From Armatimonadota bacterium (GTDB lineage: Bacteria > Armatimonadota > HRBIN16): a DNA stretch of 64,000 nt. Shown piece after piece: positions 3,826-51,884 of the stretch. Numbering within the stretch: the stretch's first letter is position 1; each line of letters starts with the position of its first letter. The DNA lies in assembly GCA_026003175.1 (NCBI GenBank), contig BPGT01000001.1:906839-970838 (forward strand), in the 5' to 3' direction. Under the pieces are notes generated by a model, which was not told where the DNA came from, ran no database searches, and was given only the letters and a program-made list of their open reading frames with translations. The position numbers and the translations under genes were made by a program.

Positions 3826-4033
3826 CTTGAAGCCCTGAGGGTGTTCGAGAATTGTTGAGAAGTTGGTTGTAGCGCAAGGAGAGAGGCGTTCTTGCTATCC
3901 CTGCCTTACCTCACCCCCGTCCCCTCTCCTGCGAGGAGAGGGGCGTTCCCCCTTCCCTTGCAGGGAAGGGGGCAAGGGGGTTAGGTGATCTATCCATTCA
4001 ACCAGCAATTTCGAACACCCTCCTTGAAGCCCT
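3826..4033 (+). mobile_element. MITE-like element, copy 2, with 11-bp target duplication
   Basis: The element proper is 3837-4022, again 186 bp and nearly identical to copy 1 (one visible change in a hairpin loop, TGC instead of TAC, and one or two bases near the right end). It is bounded by the direct repeat CTTGAAGCCCT at 3826-3836 and 4023-4033. It sits between the divergent GH38-like and transglutaminase-like genes, just upstream of the latter's putative promoter. Confidence 0.88.
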
Positions 4034-7090: not shown

Positions 7091-7278
7091 GAGAGTGTTC
7101 GAAAATTGTTGAGAAGTTGGTTGCAGCGCAAGGAGAGAGGTGTTCTTACTACCCCTTGTCCTACCTCACCGCCGTCCCCTCTCCTACGAGGAGAGGGGCG
7201 TTCCCCCTTCCCTTGCAGGGAAGGGGGCAAGGGGGTTAGGTGATCTATTCATTCTAAACACCAATTTCGAACACCCTC
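7091..7278 (+). mobile_element. MITE-like element, copy 3, diverged, no clear target duplication
   Basis: This 188-bp copy begins GAGAGTGTTCGAAAATTG and ends CAATTTCGAACACCCTC. Both internal hairpins are kept, but point changes and two extra bases are present. Flanking direct repeats are not visible. Its right flank (CCTTGACT...TATATTGC) matches the right flank of copy 2, so it was probably carried along by duplication of the neighbouring gene and not inserted independently here. Confidence 0.8.
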
Positions 7279-15811: not shown

Positions 15812-16021
15812 CGCTCGCTCCTGTTTGCATCAGAGTTAGGGTGATGAGTCCCTGTTCGTGGCACGGGCGGGTTTCCCCTTCGGGGGAGGCAGGATTTGCG
15901 AAACAAACGTCTCTGTCTGGCGATAGCAGCAAAAATTTTATAAAATTTTCCCGTGAAATCCCCAGAAACCCCGTTTGTGGTACGATTCTTGCATACATAT
16001 GGGGTGGAAAGCTCTGGGGCG
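15812..16021. other. Divergent intergenic region before the Rhs array
   Basis: Includes a perfect AAAATTTTATAAAATTTT palindrome (about 15933-15950), which could be an AT-rich promoter core for the minus-strand glycosidase gene. No recognisable Rhs N-terminal coding sequence is present, so the array starts without the usual head of an Rhs gene. Confidence 0.4.
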
Positions 16022-17248
16022 ATGGCGATGAGAACCCTGTTGTATGACGGCGTGGGCAACCGCACGGGGATGACAGTCAGTTTCCCTGCCCAGCCCAACC
16101 TGGCGGGTGTGACCAACTACGCCTACGACCTCAAGAACCAGTTGCTCTCCGAGCAGTCCACGCGGGCTGGTGGATACACCTTCAGTTTTGGCTATGACCC
16201 GGCGCAGAACCCCACCACCTTCAAGGGGCAACCGCGCACCTACAACGCCAACAACCAGCTCATCGGCACCGGCTTTGCGTATGACGGCAACGGCAACCCG
16301 GTGTTGTATAAGGGGGTGAACCTGGCGTTTGACCCCGAGAACCGGATGACGGCATATGGCAGCATATTGACCGCCGGCTACAACGGGGACGGTTTGCGGG
16401 TGTGGAAGCAGACGGCGTCTGGCAGGCGGTATTACCTGTATGATGGGGAGGAGCTGGTGTGCGAGCTGGACGCAGCGGGCAACGTGGTGGCTCCGGTGGT
16501 GTTCGGGGCGAACGGGCTGATAGCGTATGGCAGTTTCATCTACCAGTTTGACCCTCAGGGTAACGCTGTTCACATCATGGATAACAGTCGTAACGTGTTG
16601 GCGAACCTTGCGTATGATGCGTGGGGTCAGCTTATCTCTGGAAGCAACCCCACCCCCTACGGCTACAAAGCCCAGTGGGGCTACACCACCGACGTGGAAA
16701 CTGGTATACTGTTACTGACGCACCGTTACCTTGACCCCGCGACGGGGAGGTTTTTGACGAGAGGAACCATAGGACTAGAAGGCGGGATTAACCTGTACTC
16801 CCTTGATGGGAACAAAGTTATAAACCCACCAAAAGTGATACCAGGCGACGAACCCAAAGATGGATTGAGGCCGATGCCTCCCCCCGAAAGACCATCACCT
16901 CCTAGGGTGAGCCCGCCGTTTTTGGCTCGCTGTATATGCATTTTAGGATTACTATTGTGTGCTAAGCCGACCGCTCCACCAGAAAGTGACGAGATACACC
17001 CGAGGCCGCCGGGTGCAGATTGCTCTGAGGAAGCTATCAGAAAGTGGCTCAGGAAGAACGCCCCTAAAGTTGAGAAAGATAATCAAGCGCGAAAGACGTT
17101 TCACGACTGCTTGGCAAAGATGAAGGGAAAACTCAAGAATGTATGTGTTACTCCCGATGGTAACGTATACAATCCTATCAACTGGGGGCACATAGGTGAC
17201 CTATGGGAGTGCGTGGAGGAAGCAGAGTCAAAGTTACCCAGGAGGTAA
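16022..17248 (+). CDS. Rhs/YD-repeat protein, head-less, with C-terminal tip 1
   Basis: About 408 residues. Residues ~1-260 are YD repeats (YDLKNQLLSEQ, YDGNGNPVLY, YDAWGQLISG). They lead into the Rhs core end, GYKAQWGYTTDVETGILLLT followed by HRYLDPATGRFLTR and GLEGGINLY. After the core the sequence is non-conserved: a Pro-rich linker, a hydrophobic stretch (RCICILGLLLCA), then a charged Cys-containing tail ending ESKLPRR. Full Rhs proteins exceed 1000 residues, so the N-terminal part is missing. The ATG at 16022 is chosen because similarity begins just after it; no strong ribosome site is seen. It is followed by an LRR gene whose ribosome site overlaps this stop codon. The toxin role of the tail is inferred from Rhs architecture. 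Confidence 0.7.
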   Translation: MAMRTLLYDGVGNRTGMTVSFPAQPNLAGVTNYAYDLKNQLLSEQSTRAGGYTFSFGYDPAQNPTTFKGQPRTYNANNQLIGTGFAYDGNGNPVLYKGVNLAFDPENRMTAYGSILTAGYNGDGLRVWKQTASGRRYYLYDGEELVCELDAAGNVVAPVVFGANGLIAYGSFIYQFDPQGNAVHIMDNSRNVLANLAYDAWGQLISGSNPTPYGYKAQWGYTTDVETGILLLTHRYLDPATGRFLTRGTIGLEGGINLYSLDGNKVINPPKVIPGDEPKDGLRPMPPPERPSPPRVSPPFLARCICILGLLLCAKPTAPPESDEIHPRPPGADCSEEAIRKWLRKNAPKVEKDNQARKTFHDCLAKMKGKLKNVCVTPDGNVYNPINWGHIGDLWECVEEAESKLPRR

Positions 17249-17257
17249 GGGGCTAAT

Positions 17258-18439
17258 ATGGGGTTTATATACAAAAAGATCAGATTTCCTAGCGATCGCT
17301 CTATGGGTGATCTACTCATCGAAGCCTCGGACGTGCAACCTGACACCAGAGCGATGCCACAAGTTGTGATGGCAAGGGGAGAGATCCTTGTTCGCAATGA
17401 CGAGAGAACGACTTTGTTGGTTGCCGACGAAGCAGTACACGATCTTTCTCCTCTAGCATCCCTCGCCCCGGACGATCTGAATAATCTCCATTTGGCTGAA
17501 ACGGGGGTTGAAGATAGCCAATTGGCACACGTCCAGCACCTCGCTGGGATAGACGGTTGGTTGAACCTGCATAAAACCCGCATCACAAGCAGTGGTTTGT
17601 CCCATTTGTCCACATTAACCAGCTTGCGCGAGCTGATGCTCTCCGAAACGTTCATCGATTCGGAGGGATTGGTTGCTATATCCTCTCTGAAAGCTCTCCG
17701 AATCTTGGACATGCGGAGCACCTCCATAGGCGACGTAGGCATCCAATACCTTTCTAGGCTAGACAACCTGCATACTCTCAGCCTTGCCCAAACTTCTGTT
17801 GGTGACAGGGGCACAGAACCATTAGCTCACCTGGGTAACCTGCGTCATCTTGATATCTCCCAAACACTTATAACAGACAAATCTATGCCGACTATTACGA
17901 GATTGGGTGGATTGCGAGTTCTTTCTCTTTCAGAGAACACCATTACGGATGCAGGTCTGGAACACATGCCCCGTTGCTTTGGACTACTAGAGCTAGATCT
18001 GACAGGAACACGGATAACCGATACTGGTGTGCACTATATTGCGCAGCTACCTCATTTGCGCGAATTGATCCTGGACTATACACGGGTGACCAATGCGGGT
18101 ATCCGAATGCTGATTCATTTGCCGATTGAGCGACTGTCAATAAGAGGCACTGCTATAGACGATGGTTGCGTCGACAGTTTGCTTCAGATGAGCATGTTGC
18201 GAAAGTTGGAGTTAGACGACACTCACATAACGGACCAGGCTATCGGGGCGCTGTATGAACTACCCTTAGTGGAACTGGGTTTGCGTAATACAGATATTTC
18301 CGATGACAGTGTGACTTTCATATCCCAAATGAGTCTCCTACAACGTATCAATCTATGGGGCACGAAGGTGAGTGTGTCTGGTGCACGCAGGCTGCGTGCT
18401 ACTTTACGCACAGCGCGAGTGCTGCACCATGCAGGCTAA
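17258..18439 (+). CDS. Leucine-rich-repeat protein, candidate immunity protein 1
   Basis: The 393-residue protein has about twelve 22-24-residue leucine-rich repeats of the type L..L..L.L..T.ITD.GL (for example LLELDLTGTRITDTGVHYI). An uncharacterised N-terminal region of about 80 residues precedes them, and there is no signal peptide. AGGAGG lies on the upstream rhs stop codon and the ATG is nine bases later, so translation is probably coupled to rhs tip 1. LRR folds bind proteins, which suits an immunity protein that blocks the preceding toxin, but this role is inferred only from position. Confidence 0.6.
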   Translation: MGFIYKKIRFPSDRSMGDLLIEASDVQPDTRAMPQVVMARGEILVRNDERTTLLVADEAVHDLSPLASLAPDDLNNLHLAETGVEDSQLAHVQHLAGIDGWLNLHKTRITSSGLSHLSTLTSLRELMLSETFIDSEGLVAISSLKALRILDMRSTSIGDVGIQYLSRLDNLHTLSLAQTSVGDRGTEPLAHLGNLRHLDISQTLITDKSMPTITRLGGLRVLSLSENTITDAGLEHMPRCFGLLELDLTGTRITDTGVHYIAQLPHLRELILDYTRVTNAGIRMLIHLPIERLSIRGTAIDDGCVDSLLQMSMLRKLELDDTHITDQAIGALYELPLVELGLRNTDISDDSVTFISQMSLLQRINLWGTKVSVSGARRLRATLRTARVLHHAG

Positions 18440-18462
18440 GTGGGATGCCATCCCTCTCAGTT

Positions 18463-18924
18463 TGCAAAGCCCAACAGGGCTACTACACCGACATGGAAAC
18501 AGGTATACTGTTACTGACGCACCGCTACTTTGACCCCGCGACGGGGAGGTTTTTGACGAGGGCCCCGATGGGGATGGAGGGTGGAATCAATCTGTATGCT
18601 TATGTGGGCAATGGGGTGGTGGTGCTTAAAGACCCTACTGGGCTTATACCCCCTATTGTCGGTCTGTTGGTAAAGCAGTGCTTGGAGGGGGCAGCGGGTT
18701 CAGCTTTGGGTAACTTGGCTGAGTGGCTCACGTGCATGCTCGGTGCGCTGATTCGTGGCTACGGTATTAAAGAAGCAGCGTCAGCATGTGGAGGGCTTCC
18801 GGTGAACCAGTGTGAGATCCTGGCTGGCTGCATTGGCAGAATACTTGGGGGACCTTTCGCAAAGAGATTACTGCCATGGCTGCAGAAGAAGCTGCAAGAT
18901 CTATCAGAGGAGATTGTGGGTTAG
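18463..18924 (+). CDS. Orphan Rhs C-terminal tip 2
   Basis: Starting 24 bases after the LRR gene stop, the frame repeats the end of the Rhs core (KAQQGYYTDMETGILLLTHR, then FDPATGRFLTR and GMEGGINLYAYVGNG). It continues into a unique 100-residue tail rich in hydrophobic and small residues, with Cys residues (GLLVKQCLEGAAGSALGN, CEILAGCIGRILGG). A tail like this could insert into membranes. No convincing start codon precedes it (a possible ATG is at 18493 without ribosome site), so it is probably silent until joined to a complete rhs gene. A TAG ends it at 18922, but the same frame continues as a Pro-rich sequence to 19059. Confidence 0.6.
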   Translation, partial: CKAQQGYYTDMETGILLLTHRYFDPATGRFLTRAPMGMEGGINLYAYVGNGVVVLKDPTGLIPPIVGLLVKQCLEGAAGSALGNLAEWLTCMLGALIRGYGIKEAASACGGLPVNQCEILAGCIGRILGGPFAKRLLPWLQKKLQDLSEEIVG

Positions 18925-19089
18925 CTTACGTCTGGTTTCTGCCGGGGTATTACACTCCCTCCACCTCCTAAGCGTCCACGTCCGAAGCCGGTGCCTATGC
19001 CTCGTCCTCCTGATGACCCAAAGCAATGTGGTTACCAACCACCTCCGCGTTATCCATAAAAACGGTGCAGTCGAGGAAGGAGGTATAGC

Positions 19090-19356
19090 ATGAGGGAGTT
19101 CCTGTTGTATACGACTATAGGTTTAGCCATGATACTGAGCCAAACCTGGTGGTACCCCAAGCATATAGGATGGGCACGCACCTTGGCGATTTGGCTAGTA
19201 GGGGCACTTGTAGTGGCAGCTTTCGCTTCCATAACACGCTTGTTATCATTTCATCACGAGCGGTATAGAGATTGGCTTGCGATTTTAGTGGTTGCCATAT
19301 TAGCAGCAGCAGTTATTGGCTTAACAAGAGGATTGTGGGTGGTTCCAAAGCCGTAG
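19090..19356 (+). CDS. Small membrane protein, candidate immunity protein 2
   Basis: The 88-residue product has three predicted membrane segments (about residues 3-16, 30-48 and 62-80) separated by short basic loops. AAGGAGG lies five bases before the ATG. It follows Rhs tip 2, whose tail is hydrophobic. Small multi-span proteins commonly protect against membrane-acting toxins, so an immunity role is plausible but unproven. No sequence family is recognised. Confidence 0.55.
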   Translation: MREFLLYTTIGLAMILSQTWWYPKHIGWARTLAIWLVGALVVAAFASITRLLSFHHERYRDWLAILVVAILAAAVIGLTRGLWVVPKP

Positions 19357-19372
19357 AGCAGAGCCTTGTTGG

Positions 19373-19992
19373 ACCGACCCCACGCCTTACGGCTACAAAG
19401 CGCAATGGGGCTACACCACGGATGTGGAAACAAGTATACTGTTACTGACACACCGTTACCTTGACCCCGCGACGGGCAGGTTTCTGACCAGAGACCCGAT
19501 TGGGTTGGAGGGAGGCGTGAACCTGTATGCGTACAACGAGAACAAAGTTGTAGCTCCTCCTGAACAGCTGCCGGGGCAGCGTACTGGTGGAGGAAATGGG
19601 TATAAGCCTGTGCCGCCTAGAGTGCCTAATCCTCCTTTTATCGTTCGCTGTATTTGTGTATTAGGTTTGCTGTTGTGTGCGAAGCCGACTGCGCCTCCAG
19701 AAACGGACGAGTTGACCCCGGGCCCGAGCCACCTTGCAGCGACTATGAACAGCAGGGTTATCTCTGGGCGAATGAGATGTACGCTGCATCAAAGTGCCGT
19801 GAACCGGGAGACAATCTTAAAGGACGACCTAAAAAAAGTGACTCTACGAAGTGTCCAGGCGGAAAACACTATATGTGGGAAGTAAGCAGGTCCTCCCATA
19901 TCAGTGTGTTGTGCTGTCCCTGCACAACACCAAGTGGCGTGATGTCTTGGAGGTGCAAGTGCTGGAGGAAGCCAAACAAATGGAAACAGTGA
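19373..19992 (+). pseudogene. Orphan Rhs C-terminal tip 3, frameshifted
   Basis: Beginning 17 bases after the membrane protein stop, the frame repeats the Rhs core end (GYKAQWGYTTDVETSILLLT, RDPIGLEGGVNLYAY). It then carries a linker and a hydrophobic segment (RCICVLGLLLCAKPTAPPE) shared with tip 1. Near 19720-19735, in a run of C and G bases, the frame is apparently lost. The original frame ends at 19885, while the neighbouring frame gives a Cys-rich tail (CSDYEQQGYLWANEMYAASK, CCPCTT, CKCW) ending at 19992. The second reading overlaps the following gene by 13 bases, as a coupled immunity gene would. No start codon with ribosome site is seen. Confidence 0.6.
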
Positions 19993-20777
19993 TAGATCGT
20001 CATACTTACCTTGCGCGAATTGGCCGGCTCGTGCGTCCGCCAAGATGCATCTTCCTACCTAAGTCCTACGACTGGGAAGAGAGGTTTTCAAAAGCTATAG
20101 ACTACCTGCCCCGCTTCTTGCATGGACTGCCTGTAGAGGTGCAGGTAAGTTTGGCACTCAGGGCGGTCAACCGCTATCGCCCGAATTATGAGTTCTGCAA
20201 TCCGGGTGACCAGCGGGTGAGTCGGGTGGTGGAAGCGGTTGAAACGTGGCTGAACGACAGGTCAGAAGGAAACGCCAGACTGCAGGAGTGTCGTGTGGGT
20301 AACTGTTCAGAGCCGAAGGGATACTGGCAGTTCTTAGAGGCAGTGAGCCTGCTCAGGTACAGTACGCTACGCTGGTGTGGGGAAGTAGATCGTCTCACCG
20401 TGGCAACAGCGAGCATATTGGAAGGATGTATTCGGCAGCGCATGGATGACATCTGGCGGGCAGACAACCCGCGAGATTACGAGGCAGAGAAGAGAATACA
20501 GGAGATCGATGAAATACTTGGGGTAAACGGAGACAGATTGTCTGATGAGGAGAAACGACGCCTTGAGCAGGAGATGGATACGCTGATAGAGATGCAGGAG
20601 AGCTCGCAGCGTAATAATATCGTGGTGCGTGCAGTAGCTTGCCGCGAGCTGTCCATATTGACGGAGTGGATGCGGGAGATTGCCGATTTGTATCCTGAAG
20701 GAGCCCGACCGAGCCGGCGCACAATCAGAATGTGGTGGGGAGGCTGGGACGACGCCGAACGTGTGTTACGTGGTTGA
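19980..20777 (+). CDS. Hypothetical protein, candidate immunity protein 3
   Basis: The 265-residue protein is not recognised. It is soluble-looking, charged and mostly helical in character, with Trp-rich patches (MWWGGWDDAERVL at the C terminus). The ATG at 19980 is chosen over an upstream GTG because GGAGGAA lies ten bases before it. The gene then starts inside the end of Rhs tip 3. Position and overlap suggest it neutralises tip 3; nothing in the sequence shows the mechanism. Confidence 0.5.
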   Translation: METVIDRHTYLARIGRLVRPPRCIFLPKSYDWEERFSKAIDYLPRFLHGLPVEVQVSLALRAVNRYRPNYEFCNPGDQRVSRVVEAVETWLNDRSEGNARLQECRVGNCSEPKGYWQFLEAVSLLRYSTLRWCGEVDRLTVATASILEGCIRQRMDDIWRADNPRDYEAEKRIQEIDEILGVNGDRLSDEEKRRLEQEMDTLIEMQESSQRNNIVVRAVACRELSILTEWMREIADLYPEGARPSRRTIRMWWGGWDDAERVLRG

Positions 20778-20784
20778 GTAGATT

Positions 20785-21531
20785 ATGCGCCCATGCAACG
20801 TCGTTCTCCTGCTGGATGATGACGGTCGCACGGTGTTGGCGAACCTTGCGTATGATGCGTGGGGTCAGTTGATGTTCGGTTCCAACCCTACGCCTTACGG
20901 TTACAAAGCGCAATGGGGCTACTACACCGATGCAGAAACAGGTATACTCTTACTGACGCACCGTTACCTTGACCCCGCGATGGGGAGGTTTCTGACGAGG
21001 GACCCGATGGGGATTGAGGGCGGGATTAATCTGTATGCGTATGTGGGGAATAATGCTGTCGTCTTCGGGGATCCTACTGGTTACGATAGCTTTCGCCGTG
21101 ACTGCGACAAGAAAGCGAAAGAGTTACAAGATGCTATCGACGAGCTGGAGCATGACTGGAATAAATGGGATCGGAACAACCCAGGTCATACTAACGAGAT
21201 TTTCGGGCGCTGCGTAAAACTGCTCAACAAGATTGAGGAGTTCGCACGCCAGTGTGCCCAGGAGTGTTACAAACTGACATGGCAAGAGGTTTGGGACTAC
21301 TTTAAGGGAACCTGTCAGAAGGAAGCACGACGACGTTATAAAAAAGACAAGAGGTGGCGCCTGTTATTAAAGGAGGTAATTTGGGATCCTGGGTTGAGAG
21401 ACTGTACAGCAGACCTGTTTTGGGGCTGTCTTGCTGGCCGAGCTGTTAAGATAGGGTGCGGAATAGTAGCAGGTGCCGTCCGATGCCTACCGCGATTGGT
21501 GCCACAGCCTCCTGTAGTTGTCCCGCGGTGA
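20785..21531 (+). CDS. Orphan Rhs C-terminal tip 4
   Basis: The 248-residue frame contains the longest core repeat of the orphan tips, from VLANLAYDAWGQLMFGSNPT through ILLLTHRYLDPAMGRFLTR and GIEGGINLYAYVGNN to DPTG. A 150-residue unique tail follows with many Cys, Lys and Trp residues (CDKKAKELQDAIDELEHDW, ARRRYKKDKRWRLLLKEVIW) and a Pro-rich end. The ATG at 20785 lacks a ribosome site, so independent expression is doubtful. It precedes an unrelated gene by ten bases. A toxin role is inferred from the Rhs layout. Confidence 0.62.
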   Translation: MRPCNVVLLLDDDGRTVLANLAYDAWGQLMFGSNPTPYGYKAQWGYYTDAETGILLLTHRYLDPAMGRFLTRDPMGIEGGINLYAYVGNNAVVFGDPTGYDSFRRDCDKKAKELQDAIDELEHDWNKWDRNNPGHTNEIFGRCVKLLNKIEEFARQCAQECYKLTWQEVWDYFKGTCQKEARRRYKKDKRWRLLLKEVIWDPGLRDCTADLFWGCLAGRAVKIGCGIVAGAVRCLPRLVPQPPVVVPR

Positions 21532-21541
21532 GGGGTGTAAA

Positions 21542-23026
21542 ATGGCGAAACAGCCTCTTCCGTATATCGATATACCACCAGAGCCTTTCGCCAGTCGCCT
21601 GCTTTTCTTGGCGACGTCTATCCGTCCACCTTGTTCTGTAGAGGAGATGATAGCACATCTCAAGCTGCCCAGGAAAAAAGACTGGAGTTTGTGGAAGCGA
21701 GACGGCAACTTGCAAAGCGAGGATACTGCTACGCGCACTAAGGCGTGGATGATATGGGTAGAATCTCTCGCTGATCTGCTTTTGACGCACACTCTGATTG
21801 ATTTTGCTGCATTGAAGACATGCAGATTTCCGTCAGGTGTCTCGTATGAAGGCAAGTGTGAGTTCGAACCGGCGTACTTGTGGCTGCGACCTGAGGATGT
21901 ATGGTGGTTCGTTTGCCATCTGATGGCGATTCCACCTGAGAGATGGTTACCAAAAGACTGTACTGCGGGTCAGCTCAGCCTCCTCGAGGAGGCAGTGAAG
22001 CGTTGGGGGCAGGCGTTCCTTTACCCCCGCCACAATTTGCCTGAAGTCGCGACGCTTCTGCCAGGCTGTGCTTTCCAAGAATCCTCTCCGGAATCTGCCG
22101 GGCCGGTTCGCCAGCTTGAGCATGCGCTCAAAAGACTTTTCGTCTGGCTAGATGCATGGCAGACGTGTCCATACGATACGCTTGGCCTTTTGCAGAGTCT
22201 TGGAGAACTTGCTAAGGTGTATTATGAGGTCTACAACTCGCTAACACAGCTTCTTCTTGGGGAACAACTTCATAGGGAACAAGCGGATAGACCGGTGACG
22301 CTGGCAACCTCTGCGCCATCCCAAATATGTGTGAAGGTCGCTGCACGTTTCGTATACCTAATGGTAGGTAGGCAGATAGAAGGAGCCTCGTCCCTGAGCG
22401 GACTCGCAGAGTTACCGCTAACTACCCCTTCCCCGCGGCAGGAGCCTTCTCCCAGTTACGACGAGACAACAGAGATAGCGAATAGTACCTATGACTACAA
22501 CGAGTACTTGAGGTACAGGTTTCGAACAGCGCTGCGGCAGTCATACCGGCTTGTCGATTTGATTCACCGATTTGTCATATGGTGGGAACAGCCTTCGGAG
22601 CACAACTACGGTTTTGTGCATCCGGTATATAGCATTTGCGATTTCTGGGAATGGCACGCAGCAGAGATAGTTAAAGGGATTCTCTATTTCTCGGGAGCCG
22701 ATTTTGAGCGTTATGTTGCCCTATCCGCCCAACAACAGGCAGAATTGGAGACGCGCGTGAAGAGATATCTTCTAGGAAAGGGATGTATTAAAAGATACCG
22801 GAACCTTTTAGCAACGTTAGGACATGGAAAGCAGACGAGTACAGACCACTCAAACAGAGGGGCGGCATTGCCCATATTCGAGTGGCTAAACAAATTTGCT
22901 CTGCTACCATACAATGCGGTAGACCTGGTGCACTCAGTTAACGAATTGCAGAAACATGTCTGGGCATATCACGAGGTCCTTGTTGAACAGTGGTTGGCGA
23001 ACGTGAGCAACCACCTGCGAGGCTAA
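21542..23026 (+). CDS. Hypothetical protein, candidate immunity protein 4
   Basis: The 494-residue product is not recognised and has no signal peptide. It is Trp- and Leu-rich and probably mainly helical. The ATG at 21542 has GAGGGGTG about seven bases upstream, while an in-frame TTG at 21518 lies inside the preceding gene without such a site. It closes the Rhs array. It is larger than most known immunity proteins, so it could instead be an accessory protein or a passenger. Confidence 0.5.
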   Translation: MAKQPLPYIDIPPEPFASRLLFLATSIRPPCSVEEMIAHLKLPRKKDWSLWKRDGNLQSEDTATRTKAWMIWVESLADLLLTHTLIDFAALKTCRFPSGVSYEGKCEFEPAYLWLRPEDVWWFVCHLMAIPPERWLPKDCTAGQLSLLEEAVKRWGQAFLYPRHNLPEVATLLPGCAFQESSPESAGPVRQLEHALKRLFVWLDAWQTCPYDTLGLLQSLGELAKVYYEVYNSLTQLLLGEQLHREQADRPVTLATSAPSQICVKVAARFVYLMVGRQIEGASSLSGLAELPLTTPSPRQEPSPSYDETTEIANSTYDYNEYLRYRFRTALRQSYRLVDLIHRFVIWWEQPSEHNYGFVHPVYSICDFWEWHAAEIVKGILYFSGADFERYVALSAQQQAELETRVKRYLLGKGCIKRYRNLLATLGHGKQTSTDHSNRGAALPIFEWLNKFALLPYNAVDLVHSVNELQKHVWAYHEVLVEQWLANVSNHLRG

Positions 23027-23218
23027 GTTTCTTGTGCCTGCACTCCTCTGCATTTCGCAATCCGAAGGCGATGGCATACAGAATATGGCGGTGGGACAAA
23101 CGCAAGTAACAGTTCGTGATTGCCAGTTTGTGGCGGATAGGCAAATGGTCGCGAGCAGACTACAGGCGGTTTGGATTTTGGGAGTGAGGGTGAGCGGTTT
23201 TAGGCGGGGTTCTCTGCT

Positions 23219-24596
23219 ATGCTCCATGTCGATAACAACCTGACCCCTTCTGACCTGTTACCCGCTATCGAGCGGATGTGGCAGTTGTCGGCGGCGAAGA
23301 TACTGGCAATCGAGCAAACATGGTCGCCCGAGGCGGGTGCGCCGGTATTTACGGTGCGGGGACGCTACACCAGCCGCGCCTGGACGGACTGGACACACGG
23401 CTTCCAGTTCGGTTCCGCCCTGCTGCAGTTTGATGCCACCGGCGAGGAACGGTTCCTGCACATTGGGCGCGAGGGGACATACCGTCATATCCCTATCCAC
23501 ATCACGCACACAGGCGTGCACGATCATGGCTTCAACGTGGTCAGCACCTACGGCAACCTGTGGCGGCTGATGCGGGAGGGAAGGATCCCCCACGACGAGA
23601 ATGAACGACGCCTGTGTGAACTCGCCATCCGTTGTAGCGGCGCGGTGCAGGCAACCCGCTGGACACGTACCGCCGACGGTGGCGGGTACATCTACTCCTT
23701 TAACGGACCGCATTCACTGTTTGCGGACACCATGCGTACCCTGCGCGCGCTGGCTTTAGCACACCGGTTGGGACATGTGCTCAAAGAGGAGGGTGACCGA
23801 CCGGTTTCGCTACTGGAAAGGCTGATCCTGCATGCCCGCACCACCGCTCGCTACACTGTGTACTACGGCGAGGGGCGCGATATTTACGACGTGCGCGGGG
23901 CGAGTAGCACACGAGAGCCTATTCAACCCCAAGGACGGTAGCTACCGTTGCCCTTCCACGCAGCAGGGCTACTCACCCTTCAGCACATGGACGCGCGGGC
24001 TGGCATGGGTGATGCTGGGTTTTGCCGAACAGCTGGAGTTTGTGGAAACGCTGGGTGATGCGGAGATGGAACCCTTTGGCGGTCGCAAAGCGGTGCAGGA
24101 GTTGCTGCTTCAGCCTGCGCTGGCAACCTGCGATTTCTATATCGAGAACACACCTACCGATGGCGTTCCCTATTGGGATACCGGTGCACCGCGCCTGCGT
24201 GAGCTGGGCGACTACCTGAACCGCCCCGCCGACCCGTACAACGACTGCGAACCGGTAGACAGCTCCGCCGCCGCCATCGCCGCGCAGGGACTGCTGAGGC
24301 TGGGACACTGGATGTCCGTACACGGAAGCGGAGGCGAACACTACTGGCAAGCTGGCTTGACCGTGCTGAAACGTCTGTTGCAAGAACCCTACCTCAGCAC
24401 CGATGAAGGGCATCAGGGGTTGTTACTACACAGTGTGTACCACCGCCCGAACGGCTGGGACCATGTGCCCGAAGACAGGCGCATCCCCTGCGGCGAGGCG
24501 AGCATGTGGGGCGATTACCACCTGCGCGAGGTGTGCCTGTATGTGCAGCGTGTTGCAATAGGGCGTGGTTACTATGCTTTCTTCGGTGGAGGGTGA
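23219..24596 (+). pseudogene. GH88-like glycoside hydrolase with frameshift
   Basis: Two overlapping frames together give a protein of about 459 residues resembling GH88/GH105 unsaturated glucuronyl or rhamnogalacturonyl hydrolases. These cytoplasmic enzymes finish degradation of lyase-treated polysaccharides. The first frame has WTHGFQFGSALLQF and HDHGFNVVSTYGNLWRL. The second has FSTWTRGLAWVMLGFAEQLE, YWDTGAPRL and CGEASMWGDYHLREVCLYVQ. The break lies in the GGGG run at 23897-23900, where one extra G would explain it. The ATG at 23219 has only a weak ribosome site. Either a sequencing slip or recent inactivation is possible. Confidence 0.7.
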
Positions 24597-24853
24597 TTGG
24601 CGACCGCCTGGACGAACTACGCCGCGTGCTGCTGGAGAAGTCCAGAATGGGCATACAAAGAATGAAGAGATACTCGAACGAGTCAGGCAGCCGGCTACGC
24701 GCGTGGAACCTCAAGTTCGGGTTTTCGTCATCCGAGAGAAGCAGGACGACAACCATATCCTGGAGAGATCTCTGGTTGGAGGAAGCTTAGGCGCACGGAC
24801 GCACCGTGCGATACGCCCACTTTGATGGTACAATACCTCCGGAGGTGTTTCCG
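24597..24853 (+). other. Gap before toxin-antitoxin modules
   Basis: Short open stretches exist in two frames, including RLDELRRVLLEKSR, but I do not recognise a gene and no ribosome site supports one. TGCGAT (about 24807-24812) and TACAAT (24829-24834) form a possible promoter, which would place the mRNA start almost on the ribosome site of the first antitoxin. Confidence 0.3.
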
Positions 24854-25087
24854 ATGAAAACGCTTATCCATGCTCGTTATGACGGCAAAGTGTTTATCCC
24901 TGAAGAGCCTGTGGAGTTGCAGGAGGGACAGAGAGTCACGATGTTACTTTTAGACCCTCTGCAGAGGGCAGAATCGCTCTCGGTGGAAGAAAAAATCGCT
25001 GCGCTCAGGCGTTTTGTAGAGGGCGGTATACATGGTGTGAACCTGCCCCCAGAAGCGCTGAGCCGCGAAACCATCTATGAGGACTGA
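24854..25087 (+). CDS. VapB-like antitoxin (AF2212/DUF104 type), copy 1
   Basis: The 77-residue protein begins MKTLIHARYDGKVFIPEEPV and continues LQEGQRVTMLLLD, a pattern of the AF2212-like antitoxin family, which pairs with PIN-domain toxins. The C-terminal half is charged and would wrap the toxin. CGGAGGTG precedes the ATG. The toxin ATG is one base after this stop codon, but that toxin carries a nonsense codon. The first 60 bases are nearly identical to copy 2 at 25579. Confidence 0.75.
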   Translation: MKTLIHARYDGKVFIPEEPVELQEGQRVTMLLLDPLQRAESLSVEEKIAALRRFVEGGIHGVNLPPEALSRETIYED

Positions 25088-25088
25088 G

Positions 25089-25544
25089 ATGGTCTGCCTG
25101 GTGGATAGCAATATCCTGATACGTCTACGTGACCTCGACAGCCCAGATAGACAGATATGCGAGGAAGCTATTCAGGCTGGCTTACGACATAGTATGCCGA
25201 TGTACCTTTGTGCCTAGGTGCTTATCGAGTTCTGGGCAGTAAGCACACGCCCGCGTGAGGCAAATGGATTAGGGCTGAACACAGAGCAGGTGTATTCAGG
25301 TATCACACACATTGTACGTAGCCTGCCCCTGCTGGAGGAACCTCCCGATATAGCGCATCGCTGGCTGGAGCTGGTGCGCCGGTATAAGGTCAAAGGCAAA
25401 GAGGTGCACGACGCGCGGCTGGTGGCTTTCTCCGCAGCACATAGTATCCCCTACATCCTTACCCTCAACCCCGACGATTTCAGCCGATACCAGGAGGTTA
25501 CCGCTATTACCCCAGCACAGCTGGTGGAGCAGCTGAGCGGTTGA
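25089..25544 (+). pseudogene. PIN-domain (VapC-like) toxin with nonsense codon, copy 1
   Basis: The frame starts MVCLVDSNILIRLRD and is stopped by TAG at 25215-25217, where the intact copy has the Gln codon of CTQALIEFW. It then continues with VLIEFWAV and KGKEVHDARLVAFSAAH to 25544. PIN ribonuclease acidic residues are otherwise present (Asp near residue 6, Glu of IEFW, Asp of HDARLV, Asp of NPDDF). The full-length toxin cannot be made without suppression, leaving antitoxin 1 without a partner. A single C-to-T change would account for it. Confidence 0.8.
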
Positions 25545-25578
25545 AAAGTGGTAGAATGAGTATCAGGAGGTGTTTCCG

Positions 25579-25815
25579 ATGAAAACGCTTATCCATGCTC
25601 GTTATGACGGCAAAGTGCTTATCCCGGAGGAACCTCTGGAATTGGAGGATGGGCAAGAGGTTACCCTGCAAATCATCGAGCAAAGAGGGCGAACTGACAA
25701 TAGCCCATCGCGCGAACAACGGCTCAGAGCGTTGAAACAGCTAGTAGCTACTGCTGTAGAGGGGGCAAACATCCCGGATGAAGCCCTCCGACGCGAGAAT
25801 CTGTACGAGGATTGA
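25579..25815 (+). CDS. VapB-like antitoxin (AF2212/DUF104 type), copy 2
   Basis: The 78-residue paralog of the antitoxin at 24854 has an almost identical N-terminal 20 residues and a diverged C-terminal half (SREQRLRALKQLVATAVEGA), where toxin specificity normally lies. AGGAGGTG is conserved upstream. The intact PIN toxin begins eight bases downstream, so the pair is a small operon that should regulate itself through the antitoxin. Confidence 0.75.
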   Translation: MKTLIHARYDGKVLIPEEPLELEDGQEVTLQIIEQRGRTDNSPSREQRLRALKQLVATAVEGANIPDEALRRENLYED

Positions 25816-25822
25816 ACGCGCG

Positions 25823-26284
25823 ATGAGGCTGATGGTGGACACCAACGTGCTTGTCCGATTGCGTGACAAGAACAGTCCTCAACTTGTAGAATGCGAGCGT
25901 GCTATTGAACTGCTCATCGATGGTGAGCACGAACTGTACCTCTGCACGCAAGCGCTCATCGAGTTCTGGAGCGTAGCCACTCGCCCTCTGGAAGCAAACG
26001 GCTTAGGACGCAGCATAGAGCAGGCTTACTCCGATTGCCATTTGTTTCTCGATACTATGCCCCTGCTGGAGGAGCCTCCAGACATCGCCCATCGCTGGCT
26101 GGAGTTGGTGCGTCACTATGAGGTGAAAGGCAAAGAGGTGCACGACGCGCGGCTGGTAGCTTTCTCCGTAGCACATAGTATCCCCTACATCCTTACCCTC
26201 AACCCCGACGATTTCAGCCGATACCAGGAGGTCACCGCTGTTACCCCGGCGAAGCTGATAGAGCAGCTCGCCGGAGGAGAGTAG
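25823..26284 (+). CDS. PIN-domain (VapC-like) toxin, copy 2
   Basis: The 153-residue protein has the expected PIN-domain acidic residues: LMVDTNVLVRLRD near the start, ALIEFWSVATRP around residue 50, VHDARLVAFSVAH near 115 and NPDDFSRY near 135. VapC-type toxins are magnesium-dependent ribonucleases that halt translation by cutting tRNA or rRNA. It follows its antitoxin closely. Its 3' half is almost identical in DNA to the broken copy at 25089, while the middle differs. Confidence 0.8.
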   Translation: MRLMVDTNVLVRLRDKNSPQLVECERAIELLIDGEHELYLCTQALIEFWSVATRPLEANGLGRSIEQAYSDCHLFLDTMPLLEEPPDIAHRWLELVRHYEVKGKEVHDARLVAFSVAHSIPYILTLNPDDFSRYQEVTAVTPAKLIEQLAGGE

Positions 26285-40474: not shown

Positions 40475-40612
40475 CGACGCTCCTGCGGAGATGCGTCGTG
40501 TCGCTCGGCAGAACTTCGGCAGCCGGGCGATCATATCCCGACCCTCGTCGGGACTTAGACCCCTGTAGCTTTGCGTCCCCACATTTCTGTGGGTTTGCCT
40601 TTATCGGATCCG
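40475..40612 (-). promoter_or_regulatory. Cyclic-di-GMP-I (GEMM-I) riboswitch and expression platform of flgM
   Basis: The minus-strand RNA reads AAAGGCAAACC, then a CCACA-GAAA-UGUGG hairpin with a GNRA tetraloop, then GGGACGCAAAGC, a second hairpin (GUCCCGAC/GUCGGGAU) and CCCGGCUGCCGAAG. These are the ordered conserved elements of the GEMM-I aptamer (about 40511-40612). Downstream, ACGACGC/GCGTCGT (40475-40500) forms a hairpin just before the GAAGGAGG ribosome site, with no T run. Control of translation is therefore more likely than termination. The direction of the response cannot be read from sequence. Confidence 0.85.
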
Positions 40613-40747: not shown

Positions 40748-40870
40748 GAGGGTGTTCGAAATTGGTGGTTGAATGGATAGATAACCTAACCCTCTTGCCC
40801 CCTTCCCGGCGAGGGAAGGGGGAACGCCCCTCTCCTTGTAGGAGAGGGGTCTGGGGAGAGGTTTACCAAC
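40748..40870 (-). mobile_element. Truncated MITE-like element, reverse orientation
   Basis: GAGGGTGTTCGAAATTGG and the following bases match the right end and both hairpins of the MITE read in reverse. The remaining ~65 bases, including the other terminal repeat, are missing. It lies downstream of the dockerin-bearing gene that ends at 40913. Confidence 0.75.
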
Positions 40871-51681: not shown

Positions 51682-51884
51682 GCGTTTTTGAGGGTGTTCG
51701 AGAATTGTTGAGAAGTTGGTTGTAGCGCAAGGAGAGAGGCGTTCTTGCTATCCCTGCCTTACCTCACCCCCGTCCCCTCTCCTACGAGGAGAGGGGCGTT
51801 CCCCCTTCCCTTGCAGGGAAGGGGGCAAGGGGGTTAGGTTGTCTATCCATTCAACCAGCAATTTCGAACACCCTCAGCGTTTTT
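51681..51884 (+). mobile_element. MITE-like element, copy 5, with 9-bp target duplication
   Basis: The element proper is 51690-51875 (186 bp), nearly identical to copies 1 and 2. The direct repeat AGCGTTTTT flanks it at 51681-51689 and 51876-51884. It lies between the pafA stop and the promoter of the secreted HExxH protein. Confidence 0.9.

Follow-up and report, generated by a model that had tools for sequence, protein, structure and literature searches.

The window, as the whole 64,000-nucleotide stretch of Armatimonadota (HRBIN16) DNA analysed here is called (G000:C1:906839-970838), carries an array of four Rhs C-terminal tips, each made up of the end of the Rhs core and a tail and each followed by a partner gene. 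The array is very probably an island of displaced Rhs C-terminal cassettes that are exchanged through the core-end repeat, and the tails and partners are presumed from their sequences to be polymorphic toxin and immunity pairs. Positions are in window numbering unless a locus is named. G000 is the source genome (4.1 Mb, 7 contigs), G001–G009 are nine other genomes of the same genus, and L-numbers denote individual loci.

Layout of the array

The end of the Rhs core occurs four times in the window, as the sequence-only reading had claimed, and the matches of tips 1–4 to TIGR03696 (Rhs_assc_core) scored 42.6, 57.2, 47.3 and 70.2 bits, all above the cut-off of 32.5. Core sequence makes up about 11% of the island. 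The following features were placed:

15899–23202 (approximate ends), no strand: putative inserted island, whole, set by the limits of flank homology in G002, G003, G005 and G009
15916–16019, forward strand: rhs operon leader, with 85–95% identical leaders at other loci
15978–15993, forward strand: sigma-54-type site TGGTACGATTCTTGCA, with -24 GG/-12 GC spacing, inside the leader
16022–17248, forward strand: tip 1, a headless rhs gene, in which the first TPR-gene codons lead in frame into the final ~265 Rhs-body residues, with core end and tail
16600–16830, forward strand: core-end repeat 1, within tip 1
17258–18439, forward strand: LRR protein of 393 amino acids (PF13516, E 1.2e-19), presumed immunity gene of tip 1
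18445–18924, forward strand: tip 2, core end and a Gly/Ala/Cys-rich tail ended by a premature stop
18462–18620, forward strand: core-end repeat 2, within tip 2
19090–19356, forward strand: hydrophobic (membrane-type) protein of 88 amino acids, by hydropathy, presumed immunity gene of tip 2
19374–19885, forward strand: tip 3, core end and a frameshifted tail, with no start before the core and a recombinant junction within it
19374–19533, forward strand: core-end repeat 3, within tip 3
19980–20777, forward strand: protein of 265 amino acids, presumed immunity gene of tip 3, with homologues after the homologous tail in L039, L094 and L101
20785–21531, forward strand: tip 4, core end and an intact Cys-rich tail of 149 amino acids, with tail homologues at L045 12084 and G004 L096
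20838–21090, forward strand: core-end repeat 4, within tip 4
21542–23026, forward strand: protein of 494 amino acids, presumed immunity gene of tip 4, with homologues of 443 amino acids after the homologous tail in L045 and L096

Chance repetition was rejected, as the source genome holds 18 DNA-level core-end copies at six loci and the four window copies are 82–87% identical in DNA. A different gene does follow each tip, as had been proposed. The further claim that each core is followed by a different tail was upheld for the four tails as wholes and had to be qualified for tips 1 and 3, which have the segment RCIC[IV]LGLLLCAKPTAPPE in common ahead of their variable ends. At the tail boundary, where a DPxG-type motif would be expected, tips 2 and 4 have DPTG and tips 1 and 3 an altered sequence. 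The frame of tip 3 is changed relative to copies elsewhere, and longer versions of the tip-2 tail are found in L045 (14518-15108) and at the end of the complete Rhs protein of L094. The 88-residue protein, described earlier as spanning the membrane three times, has two hydrophobic stretches (residues 26–55 and 58–86), and a third is possible but below threshold.

Three of the tips had been said to lack a usable start. This is true of tip 3, which has none before the core, but an ATG is available to tip 2 at 18445 and to tip 4 at 20785, in each case just past the stop of the preceding gene. No ribosome-binding site was visible ahead of these two codons on sequence inspection. Tip 1 has both a leader and a start.

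Recurrence and exchange of cassettes

A search of the source genome for a complete rhs gene sharing this core end found one at L047:3580-7560, in a frame of 1,349 amino acids (1,327 from its ATG). It is preceded by a TPR gene, a sigma-70 consensus promoter and a tyrosine recombinase. Complete Rhs proteins of this type are about 1,300 amino acids long, have a signal-peptide-like start and are preceded by a TPR gene; within the genus their bodies are 75–95% identical, leaving aside the identical L047/L098 pair. L047 (C3:474000-488339) and L098 (G004:C1:1-14000) form a 14-kb segment that is 99.2% identical and lies at contig ends, which may be explained by transfer or misbinning.

Tails found as orphans in one genome also occur on complete Rhs proteins in others. 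A complete Rhs protein of 1,317 residues in the sister species G004 (L094) ends in the tail of tip 2, an orphan tail family of G000 (L041 9662) is the C-terminus of complete Rhs proteins in G004 (L095) and G001 (L100), and the tail of the complete G003 protein (L108) occurs as an orphan in both G001 and G009. In the genomes compared, no complete Rhs protein carried the tail of tip 1, 3 or 4.

The cassette of tip 2 and the 88-residue gene (18487–19533) recurs in L045 with 97.1% identity; its interior is near-identical, and the differences lie mostly in the core parts at both ends. After this cassette L045 and G004 have an LRAL... tail where the window has tip 3. The switch falls inside the core, which indicates a recombinant junction at tip 3. 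The upstream half of tip 3 resembles the L045 15374 cassette, and its tail resembles those of L039, L094 and L101. The G004 array L094 occupies the site of L039 in G000, and its cassettes match the window (98.2%), L041 (94.4%), L045 (95.6%) and L039 itself (90.2%).

Fourteen non-allelic cassette blocks were 91–98% identical, and 23 of their 28 ends lay inside core copies of both sequences. Of 17 non-allelic Rhs-body blocks, 16 ended in core, a count in which the near copies L047 and L098 enter twice. As repeat-flanked cassettes always align into the repeats, such block ends mark cassette borders at the core and not the exact crossover base. The allelic flanks of G000 and G004 are 86–95% identical when the L047/L098 segment is excluded. 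Recombination through the repeated core end, as proposed from the window sequence, is supported by the block ends together with the junction at tip 3.

The core-end profile was matched in at least 28 of the 41 genomes searched, including eight of the nine other genomes of the genus. Thirteen named core-end loci were mostly in assemblies labelled Chthonomonadia, Chthonomonadales, Armatimonadetes or HRbin16, and two were labelled Acidobacteria. At the protein level 34 places in the source genome matched the core end, including a second family 34–44% identical to the query. Arrays of this second family in the source genome have an HNH/LHH nuclease tail (PF14411, 30.4 bits, cut-off 23.3), a DUF4258 tail (25.1 bits, cut-off 25) and a HEAT partner.

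Probable insertion site

Homology of the left flank stops at 15837–15899 and that of the right flank resumes at 23200–23219 (G002, G003, G005 and G009). In these four sister species the flanks are 50–90 bp apart, so that the 7.3-kb array is read from the alignments as an inserted island, barring loss on several occasions. The remaining five genomes were not scored as empty: G004 is rearranged, in G001 the flanks fall on two contigs, G007 has no flank, and G006 and G008 have no continuous flank pair.

In G004 (L095, L096 and L135) an array follows the left flank of the window, and beyond it lies one side of a distant site; the site's other side leads into an array and then into the right flank of the window. 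The other flanks of these G004 arrays (L095 and L096) are about 50 bp apart and array-free in G000 (C3:71125-77568, L152). A crossover between islands at two sites, or misassembly at repeats, could have produced this arrangement.

Pairing of tails with partner genes

Of 120 open reading frames bearing a core, 79 were kept; the rest came from outside the genus, had a truncated core or carried a tail below 60 amino acids. Family A accounts for 58 of the 79, and a partner, chosen automatically as the next gene, was picked for 57 of these 58. All four tail and partner pairs of the window recur together elsewhere: tip 1 with the LRR gene in L094, tip 2 with the 88-residue gene in L045 and L094, tip 3 with the 265-residue gene in L039, L094 and L101, and tip 4 with the 494-residue gene in L045 and L096. 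The LRR protein of G004 L094 is 98.7% identical and unbroken, and the 88-residue protein is identical in L045 and differs by one residue in L094.

Among the 57 family-A tips, 46 of 66 pairs with homologous tails also had homologous partners (2000 shuffles: mean 2.1, maximum 9). When only tails less than 70% identical were counted, 21 of 37 pairs shared partners (shuffle mean 1.1, maximum 6), and with family B included the figure was 48 of 75 (shuffle mean 1.5). Fifteen tail families have a recurring partner gene. Partner types include LRR in the window and ankyrin and HEAT in other arrays, all of which are among the immunity proteins listed by Zhang 2012. A defence-system reading was also tried and rejected: the LRR, 265-residue, 494-residue, tip-1 and complete L047 Rhs proteins had no PADLOC match at E 0.01.

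In 54 cassettes a stop or frame change had broken six of 50 matched tails and none of 41 matched partners; two of these 41 partner matches (T00 and T42) belong by position to a neighbouring cassette. The ratio of nonsynonymous to synonymous substitution rates (dN/dS) of tails could be measured in 12 of 18 comparisons and was 0.04–0.19 in seven of the 12, some of them with near-saturated synonymous change. Cysteine content was 7.5% in family-A tails, 2.1% in partners and 1.4% in family-B tails. Two tails that are otherwise unlike (L041:7118-8446 and L045:15374-16018) both finish in LPG[QE]CIRLPNGR..CG. For the FATWC tail family of other arrays a permuted papain-like fold, suspected from motifs, was unsupported: Pfam gave no papain-like support, PDB had no sequence match up to E 1, and no claim is made for it.

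The leader of tip 1

Tip 1 and the TPR gene of L047 both start with MAMR, and tip 1 then passes in frame into the Rhs body, which it enters at about residue 908; the view that the first tip has lost its Rhs head proved correct. Leader, start and reading frame are present, and there is no signal peptide. The same leader is found at the headless genes L039 and L041 and at the complete rhs genes L042, L046 and L052, the last with a change in the -12 part, and the junction of leader and Rhs is identical at three loci. In G004 this leader stands ahead of a TPR gene and a complete rhs gene, and the left flank of the window itself is one of the places where it does so. G001 (L101:4165-5046) has another headless fusion with a different junction, in which a similar sigma-54-type leader is joined at about Rhs residue 1048 and no start codon is obvious. 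Tip 1 is frame-broken in its G004 copy, whose LRR gene is intact.

Three of the tips had been likened to silent cassettes. The displaced-cassette reading was supported, but a silent-only reading of the array was rejected in part: the leader of tip 1 also fronts complete rhs genes, and its start is in frame with the fusion.

A pattern search of the window with at most one mismatch gave one match to the sigma-54-type site, with 0.01 expected. The genome has 16 matches to the pattern TGGTACGNNTCTTGCA and none to its reverse. At seven of ten other leader-like places examined (L139–L148), a scripted rule found a gene with a ribosome site. As judged by eye, five of these genes have PEP-CTERM-type tails at their ends (VPEPGG, VPDPAS, IPDAST, VPDAST and VPEPGT) and two do not. 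RpoN is present in the genome. One long match to TIGR02915, the PrsR-type activator, was found at C1:535133-536281 (412.8 bits, below the 502.6 cut-off), and the remaining 16 PrsR-like matches span little beyond the receiver. No sigma-54 site of this type was seen at L047, L098, L100 or L108; at L047 the sigma-70-type consensus promoter takes its place. From these matches, the tip-1 leader may be under sigma-54 control.

Weighing of the explanations

Several observations weigh against a toxin and immunity island. None of the window tails matched a toxin family above the cut-off in Pfam or NCBIfam, and the tip-4 tail, folded by itself with AlphaFold2, yielded a largely helical model with a predicted local distance difference test score (pLDDT) of 58.8, too weak to use. 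The fold search for the FATWC family, run with a poor two-sequence model (pLDDT 51.9), gave a best E of 3.2. Three of the four window partners belong to no recognised family; of seven partners from other arrays, four had no family and one had a WD40 match below the cut-off. Twenty of the 66 homologous-tail pairs had no matching partner, partly from the automatic choice of the next gene. Tail dN/dS was 0.38 in one of the 12 measurable comparisons and 0.69–1.28 in four, three of these four values coming from 3–16 changes and the fourth from a broken tail. The genomes compared are drafts, mostly metagenome assemblies, in which repeats may be misjoined.

It is very unlikely that the island is the drifting debris of a former rhs operon with no present role. 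The lost head, the broken tips 2 and 3, the lack of visible ribosome sites on tips 2–4 and the dN/dS values near 1 in some recent pairs would fit such decay. Against it stand the breakage of tails and sparing of partners across the 54 cassettes, the low dN/dS in seven of the 12 tail comparisons, and an identity of 91–98% between non-allelic cassettes, compared with 86–95% for the allelic flanks of the two species. The idea that the tails, rather than being toxins, are interchangeable ends with a structural or binding role on a surface Rhs protein, and the partners chaperones, is highly improbable. The cysteine-rich family-A tails and the failure of the scanned tails to match a toxin family are in line with it, but the LRR, ankyrin and HEAT partners are known immunity types, the second-family arrays of the same genome have a nuclease tail, and tail and partner are inherited together.

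A third alternative concerns tip 1, which might be kept under its promoter as an internal, non-exported toxin with the LRR protein as antidote. Leader, ATG and frame occur at three loci with the same junction, and the G001 fusion joins the same kind of leader to another Rhs residue. A single deletion copied to three loci would, however, look just like this without any selection; the G001 fusion lacks a clear start codon, and the tip-1 tail is frame-broken in G004. This proposal is doubtful on balance. A broader reading, in which the islands are rearrangement hot spots in a cell-surface programme, with rhs operons driven by a sigma-54 promoter that PEP-CTERM-type secreted proteins also use, repeated deletions giving internal toxin-antidote units, and crossovers between islands that re-joined chromosome arms, is unlikely.

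Proposed mechanism

In the favoured reading, that of displaced cassettes exchanged through the core end, each cassette consists of the end of the Rhs core, a variable tail and a partner gene, the form expected of a polymorphic toxin and its immunity gene. The core-end repeat of 150–250 bp would serve as the crossover zone for homologous recombination, which would move tail and partner cassettes between arrays, between species and onto complete rhs genes, and a complete rhs gene would export its newly acquired tail. In the window, a complete operon has probably shrunk by an in-frame internal deletion that joined the leader, the promoter-like site and the first TPR codons to the Rhs core. Tip 1 would then have transcription and translation signals and no export signal, and tips 2–4 would be cassettes in reserve or in decay, each with an intact partner gene. 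With these partner genes intact, the array most likely serves now mainly as an immunity store and donor of tails. The tails are putative toxins and the partners putative immunity proteins, and export, sigma-54 control, expression and present role are likewise predictions.

Comparison with known systems

The array is of a known kind, the displaced Rhs tips of Enterobacteria, here as a variant in another phylum. The orphan rhs-CT/rhsI modules of Enterobacteria, as described in PMC2935791, PMC3150448 and PMC3967940, are likewise arrays of displaced core-end fragments, each carrying a variable tail and accompanied by an immunity gene; their tails also occur on complete rhs genes, recombination takes place in the conserved core, and most fragments have no initiation signals, as holds here for tip 3. 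The sequence-only reading had drawn this parallel, and its displaced-cassette part held, with toxicity still a prediction. Jackson 2009 (PMC2935791) suggested exchange of tips between loci and a circular intermediate, and stated that no chromosomal rearrangement via rhs had been published. In the related cdi genes, according to this literature (Jackson 2009; Poole 2011, PMC3150448; Koskiniemi 2014, PMC3967940), homology spans exactly from one VENN motif to the next. The present modules differ in several ways: a TPR gene precedes the complete rhs gene, whose product has a signal-peptide-like start; a single genome has six loci of one core family, among which cassettes are swapped; one array is headless, with an rhs leader and in-frame start; and the Cys-rich tails fall in no recognised family.

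An orphan rhs gene of Salmonella has been described as a type II toxin-antitoxin system (PMC7043789). Like tip 1 it is a headless Rhs-CT with an immunity protein for which an intracellular role is possible. Internal promoters and start sites were measured there, whereas here the leader was joined by deletion, as read from the DNA. In Haft 2006 (PMC1569441), a site with -24 GG/-12 GC spacing precedes PEP-CTERM genes of the PEP-CTERM/EpsH regulon in Proteobacteria, as it precedes PEP-CTERM-type genes here. Compared with that regulon, the source genome has RpoN and one PrsR-like activator below the PrsR cut-off, and the site also fronts rhs genes and the headless tip. Judged by titles, no paper on joint control of PEP-CTERM and rhs genes was evident, and no paper joining Chthonomonad and polymorphic toxin was found.

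Other features of the window

An element of about 187 bp occurs at 704–890, 3836–4022, 7091–7278 and 51689–51876, 92–100% identical to a copy at L152. L039 and L045 have it too, and the window contains a partial reverse copy at 40748–40862. A two-gene unit is duplicated in tandem at 24838–25534 and 25563–26268 (72% identical); it consists of a small-protein gene and a PIN-like gene, a pair that resembles a toxin-antitoxin unit. A c-di-GMP-I riboswitch lies on the reverse strand at 40515–40609 (77.6 bits, gathering score 35).

Implications

The cassette-swapping logic of Enterobacteria is extended by these results to a poorly known phylum, in which related species show which cassette moved where. 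The shared sigma-54-type site suggests a tie between surface-matrix production and contact competition. The 15 recurring tail and partner families are ready-paired candidates for new antibacterial toxins and antidotes, the tails scanned being mostly without a Pfam match.

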